A stretch of DNA of 23,442 bases from a virus. The stretch is from IMG/VR virus record IMGVR_UViG_3300025128_000346, positions 1-23,442 of that record, one strand, 5' to 3'. A program made the position numbers and the translations under genes. Shown piece by piece: positions 1-7,844 of this stretch (position 1 is its first letter; each line of letters starts with the position of its first letter). The notes below the pieces were generated by a model. The model did no database searches. It worked only from the letters and a program-made list of their open reading frames with translations, and was not told the DNA's origin.

Positions 1-314
1 GACTTATAATTGCCAGAAAACGTATATATGTTCTCTGCAACGCCATTTTCCCCTAATATCTGCGCATTTTTCTGCTTACATACAAAACTACCGCATATTG
101 TTCGCACACACTTACGTTTTTCTTTAGAGTTGGGGACTGTAATGTAGTATACTTTAAGGATTTGCACTACATAATGGTCATCTGTGTAAACCCAATCACC
201 TTCATTAGCCTTACGCCAGTCAGGTTTAGGTGTTAATGCACCCTGAAAGGCACAAAACTCTTCATGACTATCATATAGCCTGTGTTCTACACCTTTTATC
301 TTTTTGATTTCCAT
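1..314 (-). CDS. Partial protein, possible small terminase subunit (runs off left edge)
   Basis: Reading leftward from an ATG at 314, the frame stays open for 104 codons to the window edge, so the C-terminus is missing. The visible part begins MEIKKIKGVEHRLYDSHEEF and contains a compact segment around residues 36-56 (GDWVYTDDHYVVQILKV) followed by a Cys-containing segment (RTICGSFVCKQ). I recall a similar 'DWV.TDD...QVLK' N-terminal domain in small terminase subunits of uncultured marine phages, but this is memory, not a search. No Shine-Dalgarno sequence is visible upstream. A -10-like TATATT (326-321 on this strand) would start the transcript at the A of the ATG, giving a leaderless message. 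Position at the end of the minus-strand block next to a gene-free region would suit terS. The open frame is well supported; the function is tentative. Confidence 0.55.
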   Translation of the reverse strand, partial: MEIKKIKGVEHRLYDSHEEFCAFQGALTPKPDWRKANEGDWVYTDDHYVVQILKVYYITVPNSKEKRKCVRTICGSFVCKQKNAQILGENGVAENIYTFSGNYK

Positions 315-343
315 TAAAATAATATACATTCAATTAATTATTA

Positions 344-372
344 TTGCATACAATATTTATTTTTAGTAATAT
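344..372 (+). promoter_or_regulatory. Candidate sigma70-like promoter for the plus-strand noncoding transcript
   Basis: A -35-like TTGCAT (344-349) and a -10-like TAATAT (367-372) are separated by exactly 17 bases. Transcription would start near 379-382, at the first hairpin of the structured region. The same geometry occurs at 1994-2022 and 5423-5451. The -10 match is only fair, so this is an inference. Confidence 0.4.
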
Positions 373-378
373 TACTGC

Positions 379-445
379 GCTATATGGGTTGGTTAGACAC
401 TTCTAGCGTATAGCGCACAACAATTGACTACTAGAAGGGGATTAG
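379..445 (+). repeat. Repeat module 1 (GCTATATGGG ... AAGGGGATTAG)
   Basis: GCTATATGGG at 379-388 is followed 56 bases later by AAGGGGATTAG at 435-445. The same two words in the same order recur at 528-578. The module also carries CTTCTAG/CTAGAAG arms (400-406 and 431-437). The exact word matches are seen directly; shared ancestry of the modules is inferred. Confidence 0.6.
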
Positions 446-527
446 TTACACAGTCAGAAGCAAGTCGAAGGTAATTGAGCTAGTAACAGAAAAGATTACC
501 CTACCATAATAAACAGGCTCCGAAACA

Positions 528-578
528 GCTATATGGGAATTGAGACTAATCTCTTTGTATTTATTATAAGGGGATTAG
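528..578 (+). repeat. Repeat module 2 (GCTATATGGG ... AAGGGGATTAG), plus a 12-bp direct repeat
   Basis: This is the second copy of the two words, at 528-537 and 568-578. Its left part also belongs to a 12-bp direct repeat, AAACAGCTATAT, found at 523-534 and 603-614. Between the words lies CTAATCTCTT (546-555), complementary to the right word allowing two G-U pairs, so the module folds as a hairpin. Confidence 0.6.
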
Positions 579-684
579 ATAGTCTCTACCCAAAACTCAC
601 CAAAACAGCTATATTAAACTATAGTAAGAAAAAAAATAGTAAACTTTTAAAAATAGTATTAGAATGTGTGTGACTGTTGTTTTA

Positions 685-699
685 CCTGCCCCCACCCCG
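685..699. other. C-rich island, possible cohesive-end (cos) or packaging element
   Basis: CCTGCCCCCACCCCG contains a single A and no run of T, and sits inside very AT-rich noncoding DNA. It lies upstream of the leftward gene that may encode the small terminase subunit, the usual place for cos. A G-rich tract on the minus strand or part of a structured RNA are alternatives. The composition is seen directly; the function is inference. Confidence 0.3.
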
Positions 700-798
700 T
701 TAAAAACCTGTGGTACCCTCGTAGTTAGGTTGAAAATTCTGTAAAAAATCCATCATTATAATAGTTAGCTAGAATTTTATAATTGTTTAGTAAAAGAC

Positions 799-829
799 AA
801 GCCCCAACCATTACGTCGGGGCTTTTTTT
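799..829 (+). terminator. Rho-independent terminator
   Basis: AAGCCCC (799-805) pairs perfectly with GGGGCTT (818-824) across a 12-nt loop and runs into seven T residues (823-829). The orientation is plus, so it would end the noncoding transcript of 376-798. The T run is poor in the minus direction, so minus-strand transcription of 862-1911 may pass through. Confidence 0.85.
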
Positions 830-861: not shown

Positions 862-1176
862 CTATGGAAGTCTATATAGTATATCACCTGTGTATTTATC
901 TACAATAATATTATCCTTAAACTCGGATATTTGTTTTGGTGTTTGCACATACCATACCCAACCCTTTTGATATACTAAGTAATTTAATTTATATAAATCT
1001 GAAGCTTGGTTCATTCTACGCTTAGTAGTTGGCGTACTCCAACCGCCACTATTTAATATTACATATCTATCATTAACTACTTGTACAACTGCGGTATTAT
1101 GAAACGTCACTATTAGTCTAGACTGTTCTGTTTCCATTGGTACATTTGCTATGGTTGTTCTATGTGTTCCTATCAT
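862..1176 (-). CDS. Conserved small phage protein (104 aa), function unknown
   Basis: A 104-residue soluble protein with no signal peptide or membrane segment. It begins MIGTHRTTIANV and has a central pattern, VVNDRYVILNSGGW followed by TKRRMNQASDLYKL, ending in a Tyr/Trp-rich stretch (VYQKGWVWYVQT). I recognise this pattern (an 'LnSGGW...TTK.RMNQAS' core) as a widespread uncharacterised protein of marine phages, including cyanophages; no activity is known to me. The start is supported by AAGGGAG about ten bases upstream of the ATG. It is the last of four small minus-strand genes reading away from the divergent control region. Confidence 0.85.
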   Translation of the reverse strand: MIGTHRTTIANVPMETEQSRLIVTFHNTAVVQVVNDRYVILNSGGWSTPTTKRRMNQASDLYKLNYLVYQKGWVWYVQTPKQISEFKDNIIVDKYTGDILYRLP

Positions 1177-2080: not shown

Positions 2081-2533
2081 ATGGAAAATAAAATAGTAAG
2101 AGAGTGTGTTCAAGGTCTTATAAATGACAGTAAAATAGTAGATAAACTATCTAAACTACTTGATTGTCATCGTACAGAACTTGAAGAAAAAATAGTAGCA
2201 TTACAAGGAAATACTAATAATAATATATCCCTAGATATTATGAAGTCTTTACTAAATACAGTAAAAGATTTACAGTACAAAGTAGAGAGTGCAGAAAGCT
2301 ATGCAGATGAAGCTAAAAGTCAAGCAGATTATGCAATGGACGAGGCGTCAGAAGCAGGTCACGAGTGCGATATGGTAATAGAGTCAATAGAAGATATGAT
2401 GTCTAATATGGAAGAAGAAGTAGAAGAAGCACAAGAGGATGTAGACAACCATCAGAAGCAAATAGAAGAAACACAAAAAGAGATAGATAACAGTAACCAA
2501 TACACAAAAGTAACAGTAGATACAAACAAATAA
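2081..2533 (+). CDS. Acidic coiled-coil early protein (150 aa)
   Basis: I start this gene at 2081 (MENKIVRECVQGL). An in-frame ATG at 1991 lies upstream of the promoter's own start point. The protein is strongly acidic (36 Asp/Glu against 15 Lys/Arg). Residues 57 onward form a long helix with Ala/heptad character (ESAESYADEAKSQADYAMDE) and a Glu-rich segment, ending in a polar Asn/Thr tail. It is the only gene between a good promoter and a strong terminator, so it is probably made early and in quantity. No family is recognised. A DNA-mimic or host-takeover role would fit the charge and position but is only inferred. Confidence 0.75.
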   Translation: MENKIVRECVQGLINDSKIVDKLSKLLDCHRTELEEKIVALQGNTNNNISLDIMKSLLNTVKDLQYKVESAESYADEAKSQADYAMDEASEAGHECDMVIESIEDMMSNMEEEVEEAQEDVDNHQKQIEETQKEIDNSNQYTKVTVDTNK

Positions 2534-2550
2534 ATAAGAGAGGACTAAAG

Positions 2551-2580
2551 ACCTAGCTATTAATTTAGCTAGGTTTTTTT
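2551..2580 (+). terminator. Rho-independent terminator after the acidic coiled-coil gene
   Basis: ACCTAGCTA (2551-2559) and TAGCTAGGT (2566-2574) form a perfect 9-bp stem with a 6-base loop, followed by seven T residues. The next ORF starts only nine bases beyond, with no visible promoter, so some read-through is likely. Confidence 0.85.
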
Positions 2581-2588
2581 ATATCAAT

Positions 2589-2753
2589 ATGAATAAGAAA
2601 ATAAAAGAGCAAGAGATTAAAAACTTAAAAGAAGCAAAAGAAAAAGGCGAAGTATATATTAGCCCTGAAATTGTAACACCAATTAGAATTGAAGAGTTAT
2701 TTTTAAAAGCATTACAACAAAGTATAGCAGAAGATAAAAGAAAAGGAAAGTAA
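2589..2753 (+). CDS. Small hypothetical protein (54 aa)
   Basis: A 54-residue, highly charged protein: a Lys/Glu helix in residues 1-20, then a short segment (EVYISPEIVTPIRIEELFLK) and a basic tail. The ATG sits nine bases after a terminator T-tract with no ribosome binding site, so translation may be weak or depend on read-through transcripts. The coding call rests on the uninterrupted frame and tight spacing: its stop is followed one base later by the next ATG. Confidence 0.5.
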   Translation: MNKKIKEQEIKNLKEAKEKGEVYISPEIVTPIRIEELFLKALQQSIAEDKRKGK

Positions 2754-2754
2754 T

Positions 2755-2880
2755 ATGGAAAAGAAAGAAACAAAAAAAGATGTATTTGGATTTGAAAAAG
2801 CTATCAATTTTGAGGCTATAAATAATCTAAGCATAGAAGACTTAAGGAAATTAGAAAAAGTCCTTAAAAACATAAAATAA
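2755..2880 (+). CDS. Small hypothetical protein (41 aa)
   Basis: A 41-residue, Lys-rich protein starting MEKKETKKDVFGFEKAINFE, with a C-terminal helix (SIEDLRKLEKVLKNI). An AAAGGAAAG site precedes the ATG, and the ATG follows the previous stop by one base. No family is recognised. Confidence 0.55.
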   Translation: MEKKETKKDVFGFEKAINFEAINNLSIEDLRKLEKVLKNIK

Positions 2881-2887
2881 TGTCGAA

Positions 2888-2913
2888 ATACCTACAATCT
2901 AAATTGTGGGTAT
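2888..2913 (+). promoter_or_regulatory. 11-bp RNA hairpin in a short intergenic leader
   Basis: ATACCTACAAT (2888-2898) pairs with ATTGTGGGTAT (2903-2913) around a CTAA loop, with one G-U pair valid only in plus-strand RNA. No T-tract follows, so it is not a terminator. It lies between the stop at 2880 and the likely start at 2976. Confidence 0.5.
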
Positions 2914-2975
2914 ATAGTACAGAGTGGTTATCTGTATTACTGATGAGACAAACCAAGAAAGAAAAAGGAAAAAAT

Positions 2976-3236
2976 ATGTTAAAGAAAAGAAAAGTTATTG
3001 ATGGCGATTGTGCAACAGAATATAGATGTGAATATGGTTGTGGTAGAGACGCAACAGAAACAGAAATATCAGAAACACCTTATGGTAATTATATATGTGG
3101 GGAGATTGAATGTTGGAATGATTTTATGTTGTGCGAAGTTTGGTCTCCACTTGATGTAGAAGAAGAAGAGTGTGAATGTTGTGATGATTGTGAAGAAGAA
3201 ATAGAAGAATGTTATTGTGAAAAGGGGGAAGAATAG
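2976..3236 (+). CDS. Cysteine-rich acidic protein, possible zinc binder (86 aa)
   Basis: I place the start at 2976 (MLKKRKVIDGD), preceded by AAAGGA. The frame is also open from an ATG at 2880, but that extension has no binding site and contains a stable hairpin. The protein has about a dozen cysteines: C10, then CEYGC near residues 16-20, two around residues 39-43, and a Glu/Cys tail (EECECCDDCEEE). The first four look like a zinc knuckle. The acidic Cys tail could bind metal or be oxidation-sensitive. It overlaps no neighbour and is followed by another acidic gene. The family is unknown to me. Confidence 0.65.
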   Translation: MLKKRKVIDGDCATEYRCEYGCGRDATETEISETPYGNYICGEIECWNDFMLCEVWSPLDVEEEECECCDDCEEEIEECYCEKGEE

Positions 3237-7082: not shown

Positions 7083-7708
7083 TGGCTAGTGAAACAGCTA
7101 AAATGTTTGACGATATGTTAAACGATACAGAGAGTTTCTTTGTTCCAGGCGAAGAAACTGAAACACAAAAACCAAAAAATGCACCAAACGTAAGAGGTGA
7201 GTTTTATGGTCACATGCAAGGAGCTACAAGCAAAGAAGTTTCATGGACTAGAGATGGTAAAACATTTAAAGCTTTAGTTTATAATTATGAGTTTGTAGTA
7301 GATGCAAAAAACGAAGAGAATGAATATACAAAAGGTGATGATACCTATAGCGGTAAAGAGTATGTTGGCAGAACTTATAGGTCTAATGGTATATTTAGGT
7401 TTTTAGAACCAAAAGAGGGCGATGACTTTGTGTCAAACTCTACTGGCAATAAAAGGTACTTTCAGTTTTGTGAGACCATTGGTGTAGAGATACCTAGAAA
7501 AGTAGTTAAAATGGACGGTAAAGATGTTGAGGTTCAAGTTTTACCACCACTTAAAGGAACTGATATTGATGGAGCTCCAGTAATAGCTCTTATAGATGCT
7601 GGAAAACCATATAAAAATAAAGATGGTGAAGAGAGAACACCACACGTTGTTAAATTTGTAAAGCAATGGGAAGGAGGGGTAAAGAAAGATGCAGACATCC
7701 CATTCTAA
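7082..7708 (+). CDS. Single-stranded DNA-binding protein (SSB-like)
   Basis: A 208-residue protein with a beta-rich centre (residues about 35-190) consistent with an OB fold and a C-terminus ending DADIPF. That acidic tip with terminal Pro-Phe is the hallmark of bacterial-type SSB, used to recruit helicases, nucleases and recombination proteins. The N-terminus (MASETAKMFDDMLNDT) is acidic and helical, unlike E. coli SSB, so it is a divergent phage type. The DADIPF codons overlap the start of the next gene. It is translationally coupled to the annealing protein. Confidence 0.75.
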   Translation: MASETAKMFDDMLNDTESFFVPGEETETQKPKNAPNVRGEFYGHMQGATSKEVSWTRDGKTFKALVYNYEFVVDAKNEENEYTKGDDTYSGKEYVGRTYRSNGIFRFLEPKEGDDFVSNSTGNKRYFQFCETIGVEIPRKVVKMDGKDVEVQVLPPLKGTDIDGAPVIALIDAGKPYKNKDGEERTPHVVKFVKQWEGGVKKDADIPF

Positions 7709-7844
7709 GAGAAGATACAGAAAAGTAGGATGGTCCAGAGAGTTTCTTATCAATGCCTTGTATGGTTTTGGTATGAAGGGCAAAAAAATAAGTAGAATTG
7801 TTGGAGTTTCCCCAGCAACAGTCTACAGACACATAAAAAGATAA
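7689..7844 (+). CDS. Tiny helix-turn-helix protein (51 aa)
   Basis: A 51-codon ORF starting at an ATG inside the last codons of the SSB gene (20-base overlap), with a GGAGG-type site at 7673-7677. The product is basic at the N-terminus (SKRRYRKVGWSRE), has one helix (FLINALYGFGM) and ends in a clear helix-turn-helix, KKISRIVGVSPATVYRHIKR (32-51). This resembles the C-terminal DNA-binding domain of Hin-type resolvases and small NinH-like phage factors. Regulation of the operon or site-specific DNA binding at the adjacent dyad is possible. Confidence 0.7.
   Translation: MQTSHSKRRYRKVGWSREFLINALYGFGMKGKKISRIVGVSPATVYRHIKR

Follow-up and report, generated by a model that had tools for sequence, protein, structure and literature searches.

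A conserved RNA with a pseudoknotted fold was found on the plus strand between two phage genes, one of them the terminase small subunit gene (terS). That it is such an RNA and that its family is not in Rfam is close to certain from the comparison of homologues. The window, which is the whole stretch of DNA analysed, is an IMG/VR viral record of 23,442 bp. The RNA lies in a gap from 330 to 860 that no long ORF crosses. The genes on either side, terS and a Kyano_Gp96 family gene, are both on the minus strand and therefore opposite the RNA, as had been observed earlier (Table 1). A full-length TerS homologue from contig L063 matched the terminase small subunit family phrog_51 (E 2.1e-8). Strong covariation combined with several pseudoknots is uncommon among new RNA classes, and the phages that carry this one are uncultured.

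Table 1. Features of the terS-adjacent RNA and its surroundings in the window.
Feature	Position	Strand	Remarks
terS (terminase small subunit), N-terminal part	3..329	-	Truncated by contig end; start at 314 by homology (tblastn)
Promoter, sigma70-type	344..372	+	TTGCAT (344-349)-N17-TAATAT (367-372); ends 6 nt 5' of H1
H1	379..414	+	379-386/407-414; loop GGUUGGYUARACRCUU; 100% paired; two-sided changes at 6/8 pairs
PK1	400..437	+	400-406/431-437; 100% paired; pair 403/434 is CG, TA, GC, AT and GT
H2	425..456	+	425-429/452-456; 97.9% paired; AU to GC and GC to AU changes
H3 and H3' (pseudoknot helices)	445..487	+	445-449/483-487 and 459-461/479-481; 100% paired in the close set
H4	470..500	+	470-475/495-500; 100% paired; two-sided changes at 3/6 pairs
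R1	521..530	+	cGAAACAGCT; preceded by GGCTC, followed by AT; identical to R2 within each phage
H5 hairpin	542..586	+	542-546/582-586 and 547-554/570-577; 100% and 95.8% of cells paired
R2	601..612	+	CAAAACAGCTAT; preceded by CTCAC; identical to R1 within each phage
Conserved box	645..675	+	AAAAATAGTATTAGAATGTGTGTG; separate from the RNA core; shared by relatives with and without the RNA
Intrinsic terminator	797..829	+	AAGCCCC/GGGGCTT + T7
Kyano_Gp96 family gene (PF23790 / phrog_554)	862..1176	-	E 1.4e-10 and 6.4e-13

Homologues and Distribution

The same intergenic region was found in about 50 contigs at 67-100% identity by protein- and motif-guided scans of a viral collection. Alignment of TerS led to further divergent relatives, in which the RNA profile matched at E values of 1e-35 to 5e-8. 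The homologues total about 69 viral contigs, counted from contig names, and range from near-identical to very divergent. Pattern matches in L058, L071 and L076 covered only 21-23 nt and were taken as chance. One RNA copy was present per searched genome. The RNA is divergent from terS and nearly always its immediate neighbour. In L159 an inserted 275-aa ORF (2174-3001) separates terS from the promoter region of the RNA.

Scans of prokaryote genomes for the RNA motif and TerS returned no relatives, and a TerS search among deposited phages returned none. The window DNA matched none of about 50,700 phage records. Literature searches gave no description of this terS-adjacent RNA. In the TerS proteins (window 3-314; L063 6511-7275) about 100 residues at the N-terminus form an extra domain outside the PHROG terminase profile match. 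Contigs of 34-51 kb (G001-G011) have differing start points relative to terS, which could reflect circular permutation or simply fragments.

Fold of the RNA Core

In the predicted fold, interlocking pseudoknots form a chain (H1-PK1-H2-H3-H4), and a 3' hairpin, H5, follows. The strand order is H1a PK1a H1b H2a PK1b H3a H2b H3'a H4a H3'b H3b H4b, so that H1 and H2 are interlocked by PK1, and H2 and H4 by H3. H1 is kept in divergent homologues. The earlier note had given the first stem nine base pairs (376-384/409-417); all nine exist in the window but only 379-386/407-414 are conserved. The extension 376-378/415-417 was rejected, as only 35% of its cells were paired and it lies 5' of the probable transcription start near 379. 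Pairing of the loop with 431-437, also proposed there, proved to be a real pseudoknot with compensatory changes, in which CTTCTAG/CTAGAAG is replaced by CTTTTTG/CAAAAAG, CTTGTTC/GAACAAG or CTTATTG/CAATAAG. The remaining proposed stems, at 425-429/452-456, 470-475/495-500 and the 542-586 hairpin, were all supported by comparison across homologues. By inspection, H5 is redrawn in divergent homologues yet present. Competing helices, also part of the earlier note, were not supported: the one at 432-446/545-559 had 87% of cells paired, equal to shuffles, and zero two-sided changes. The pseudoknot helix H3 with H3' is an addition that had been overlooked, and H3 takes the forms GTTAG/CTAAC in L031, ATAGC/GCTAT in L106 and GAATC/GATTC in L165.

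RNAalifold, which cannot draw pseudoknots, independently found H1, H4, H5 and a mini-hairpin at 391-393/399-401 in which pair 393/399 covaries. The sequence GGGGATTAG occurs twice in the core, at 437-445 after PK1 and at 570-578 in the 3' strand of H5.

Covariation

Among 40 distinct close homologues 99.1% of cells were standard pairs and 19 of 47 pairs had two-sided changes. The covariation score of this set was 0.258 compared to 0.141 ± 0.005 when shuffled. None of 500 shuffles reached the observed values, a count that is not a probability since the homologues are phylogenetically related and shuffles ignore kinship. Pairing fell to 35-48% in controls with slid partners. A second set of 23 haplotypes included divergent homologues; its strands were listed by hand with their order checked against the sequences, and H5 was excluded. 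Here 766 of 782 cells in six helices were paired (98.0%; shuffled maximum 83%) and two-sided changes were seen at 25 of 34 pairs (shuffled mean 14.8, maximum 21). Homologous regions lacking covarying stems would have refuted the earlier note; covarying stems were present in both the close and the divergent sets.

An all-pairs G statistic with a conservative tree-based null, dominated by clade splits, gave no column pair at E < 0.05. Its top 15 included helix pairs 472/498 and 427/454 and hairpin pair 393/399. Single-sequence folding gave z scores of only -1.6 (370-830) and -2.4 (360-600), on which the structure could not be accepted without comparison. The case for the predicted fold rests on the many compensatory states per pair, as at 403/434, and on the slid controls.

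There were 51 G-U cells and 7 A-C cells in the 23 haplotypes, and the plus strand was therefore taken as the folded strand. This bias, two-sided compensation in six helices and indels that keep no reading frame largely refute the view that there is no functional RNA and that a DNA site or an alignment artefact was conserved. Even with a conserved DNA-like box (645-675) beside terS in the same region, that view is hardly credible. An antisense regulator, with the RNA lying opposite terS and late transcripts and dampening the late operon, would fit the minus-strand flanking genes and the near-constant position next to terS. Such a mechanism requires neither a conserved fold nor G-U tolerance, however, and the covariation points to selection on the plus-strand fold itself. 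The inserted ORF that separates RNA and terS in L159 also argues against antisense action, which is considered very unlikely.

Transcription Unit

The upstream promoter-like element with 17-nt spacing that had been described earlier is present. Among the 19 representatives for which a scan gave a result, TTGCAT/C-N17-TATATT-like promoters ended 6-7 nt before H1 in 11, and in 10 of the 19 both the spacing and a distance of exactly 6 nt recurred. In several other representatives a higher-scoring AT-rich pair masked the site, and no comparable site was seen in the scan of L165 and L167. The recurrent distance suggests that position 379 of the window, where H1 begins, is the transcription start. 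The terminator placed at about 799-829 in the same direction is likewise present. About half of the representatives had a GC-rich hairpin and T-run according to a simple scan that misses some by design. The opposite-strand version of the window terminator also scored.

From the conserved promoter, terminator and strand polarity we infer transcription of the plus strand. The unit has the features of an independent phage ncRNA, namely a promoter, a conserved plus-strand fold, a terminator and no conserved ORF. An independent plus-strand RNA of about 450 nt had been proposed; the unit with its promoter and terminator stands, but the conserved structured core is only about 240 nt (379-612).

Direct Repeats R1 and R2

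Two short direct repeats flank H5, standing after GGCUCC (R1) and after YYCACC (R2; CCUCC in L153). In the window both read AAACAGCTAT. Elsewhere the pair reads AAGGAACT, CAGAAACTA, AATGAGCAG, AAGAGCA, AATAAAACAG or ATGAGCAA, with AAGAAACAAG, AAGAAGCAA, AGAGACTA, AATAAGCAA and AAAAAGCAA as further variants. There are about a dozen R sequences across the phages and the identity of R1 and R2 is preserved within each. In 12 haplotypes R1 and R2 were identical at 82 of 84 positions, compared to a mean of 53.8 and a maximum of 72 with R2 shuffled. Both repeats are altered together between L158 and L165, which have nearly the same core, and between L159 and L165, which are 93.5% identical over the repeat segment.

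This joint change is the least explained feature of the RNA. The simplest reading of the sequences is that one partner would bind both R1 and R2 in trans; gene conversion, between repeats as short as these, is less probable. No consistent complementary strand was found near the RNA, and nine long phage contigs gave no consistent complement site. None of the phage protein families followed the RNA strictly, the two best candidates being absent from the RNA-bearing contig G007. As a tentative working hypothesis, given somewhat less than an even chance, R1 and R2 are docking sites for a variable partner. The knotted 5' domain might act as a rigid scaffold for two identical single-stranded sites. 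Each phage might have its own version of one sequence-specific partner for both sites, either a protein or a base-pairing host RNA. A new class of phage RNA machine, a guide or decoy with two arms, is possible but doubtful; on a pseudoknotted scaffold it would carry repeatedly re-targeted repeats that co-evolve with a phage- or host-specific partner, and it would serve as an accessory factor against the host or its defences. The paired evolution offers a specific and testable clue, namely that R1 and R2 share a binder, which has gone through about a dozen changes. Close relatives such as L158 and L165 provide a natural experiment for a partner search. Should the RNA prove to act on the host, phage biology would gain an RNA-based tool.

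Comparison With Known RNA Classes

The earlier note recognised no known RNA class, and Rfam gave no credible match in three family members (the window, L063 and L066). There were no matches to Rfam 15 at the gathering threshold in any of them. A search to E = 5 gave sub-threshold matches only. The best was MicC at 696-838 (35.8 bits, cutoff 90), which was driven by the terminator and lies outside the core. ARAGORN predicted no tRNA and no tmRNA in the 23-kb window. The novelty is that of the RNA class, since structured phage ncRNAs with no assigned function already form a recognised broad category. This RNA could have been listed in a survey outside Rfam.

Phi29-type pRNA is a structured RNA encoded by a phage. 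The RNA described here is also a structured phage RNA near a packaging gene, but these phages have a TerS gene, one TerS clade is without the RNA and no Rfam pRNA match was found. ToxI, the RNA of type III toxin-antitoxin systems, consists of tandem whole repeats before the ToxN RNase gene. Pseudoknots, direct repeats and sometimes a small ORF afterwards are shared with such RNAs, whereas here there is one large fold with two repeats of 7-10 nt. A type III antitoxin was rejected, as no ToxN-like toxin gene is adjacent and the ORF is usually absent and has no family match. The P4 CI and P1 c4 immunity RNAs have duplicated short sites, like R1 and R2, that must match one partner, and the complementary strand is in the same transcript. 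No complement was found near the RNA here, however, and there was no Rfam c4 match. A group I intron was rejected, with no Rfam match, a strand order (H1-PK1-H2-H3-H4) that by inspection differs from P3/P7, and an intergenic locus. A tmRNA was rejected with neither a tRNA-like domain nor a tag ORF.

ROOL is an ornate phage and prophage RNA with multiple pseudoknots, of which a 659-nt example has been studied (PMC12286853). Like this RNA, GOLLD and ROOL are elaborate phage-borne ncRNAs to which no function is assigned. GOLLD members are often longer than 800 nt and both classes are often near tRNA islands, whereas the core here is about 240 nt, lies beside terS, folds differently and has direct repeats that co-vary. 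The Rfam models of GOLLD and ROOL did not match, and the neighbouring tRNA genes that are frequent but not universal there are absent. Phage-encoded trans-acting sRNAs have been reviewed (PMC12197685). The present RNA resembles them as a phage-encoded regulatory RNA with presumed seed pairing, but differs in its large pseudoknotted fold, backed by covariation, and in having a pair of identical candidate seeds.

Modularity and Possible Role

The core is wholly absent in L145, L146, L149-L152, L154 and L160-L162, which retain a promoter in the same position, the conserved box, a C-run and a terminator-like hairpin. One 48-kb RNA-less record had no core elsewhere on the contig. The TerS tree groups these contigs in one clade amid RNA-bearing ones; the adjoining nodes are weakly supported. 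The simplest account of this placement is that the RNA was lost. Since one terS clade lacks it, the RNA is accessory. A terminase component or co-factor, by analogy with phi29 pRNA, is highly improbable for the same reason: the clade without the RNA has the same kind of TerS. The packaging idea draws on the position of the RNA, which in homologues with flanks lies upstream of terS at a distance of no more than about 1 kb.

Thirteen relatives (L063 at 7572-7805 and 12 others) have an ORF of 77 aa in the interval from R2 to the box, with R2 (AAAGGAACT; AAAGGA) positioned as its Shine-Dalgarno sequence. It had no Pfam family above the cutoff and no PHROG match. A different ORF of 57 aa occupies the same slot in L158 and L159 (L159 1689-1862). 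Most lineages have no ORF after the RNA, and L059 has the core with an ORF remnant only. The RNA-less clade, the ORF-less lineages and this remnant indicate that core and ORF can be lost separately.

The two ORFs and termination of the unit at the terminator would suit a cis-acting leader, in which a signal sensed by the core would govern read-through or translation of the small downstream ORF, with ORF-less forms as remnants or acting on the terminator. However, the core is fully compensated in the ORF-less majority (e.g., H3 of L031), R is mostly not Shine-Dalgarno-like (AAACAGC, CAGAAAC, AAUAAGC) and the 77-aa ORF matches no family, so the leader is regarded as unlikely. The RNA probably acts in trans, given that most lineages lack a downstream ORF and that core and ORF are lost separately. 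Against trans action, the RNA of ORF-bearing relatives is located in a 5' leader, where R2 can act as the Shine-Dalgarno sequence. The full reading, an accessory trans-acting phage ncRNA made as an independent unit (379-829) and presenting R1 and R2 to a putative partner, is given slightly better than even chances.

The conserved box has the form AAAAATAG..TTAGAATG.GTGTG, followed by a C-run and GGTTGAAA (window 645-675; L063 7800-7835; L149 upstream of terS). No second good copy was found within the window. The box outlasts loss of the RNA and of the ORFs, and may be a DNA site of the pac type or one used in regulation close to terS. AT-rich palindromes such as TACTATATAGTA follow the promoter or R2 in L149, L145, L106 and L063; a repressor site might look like this.
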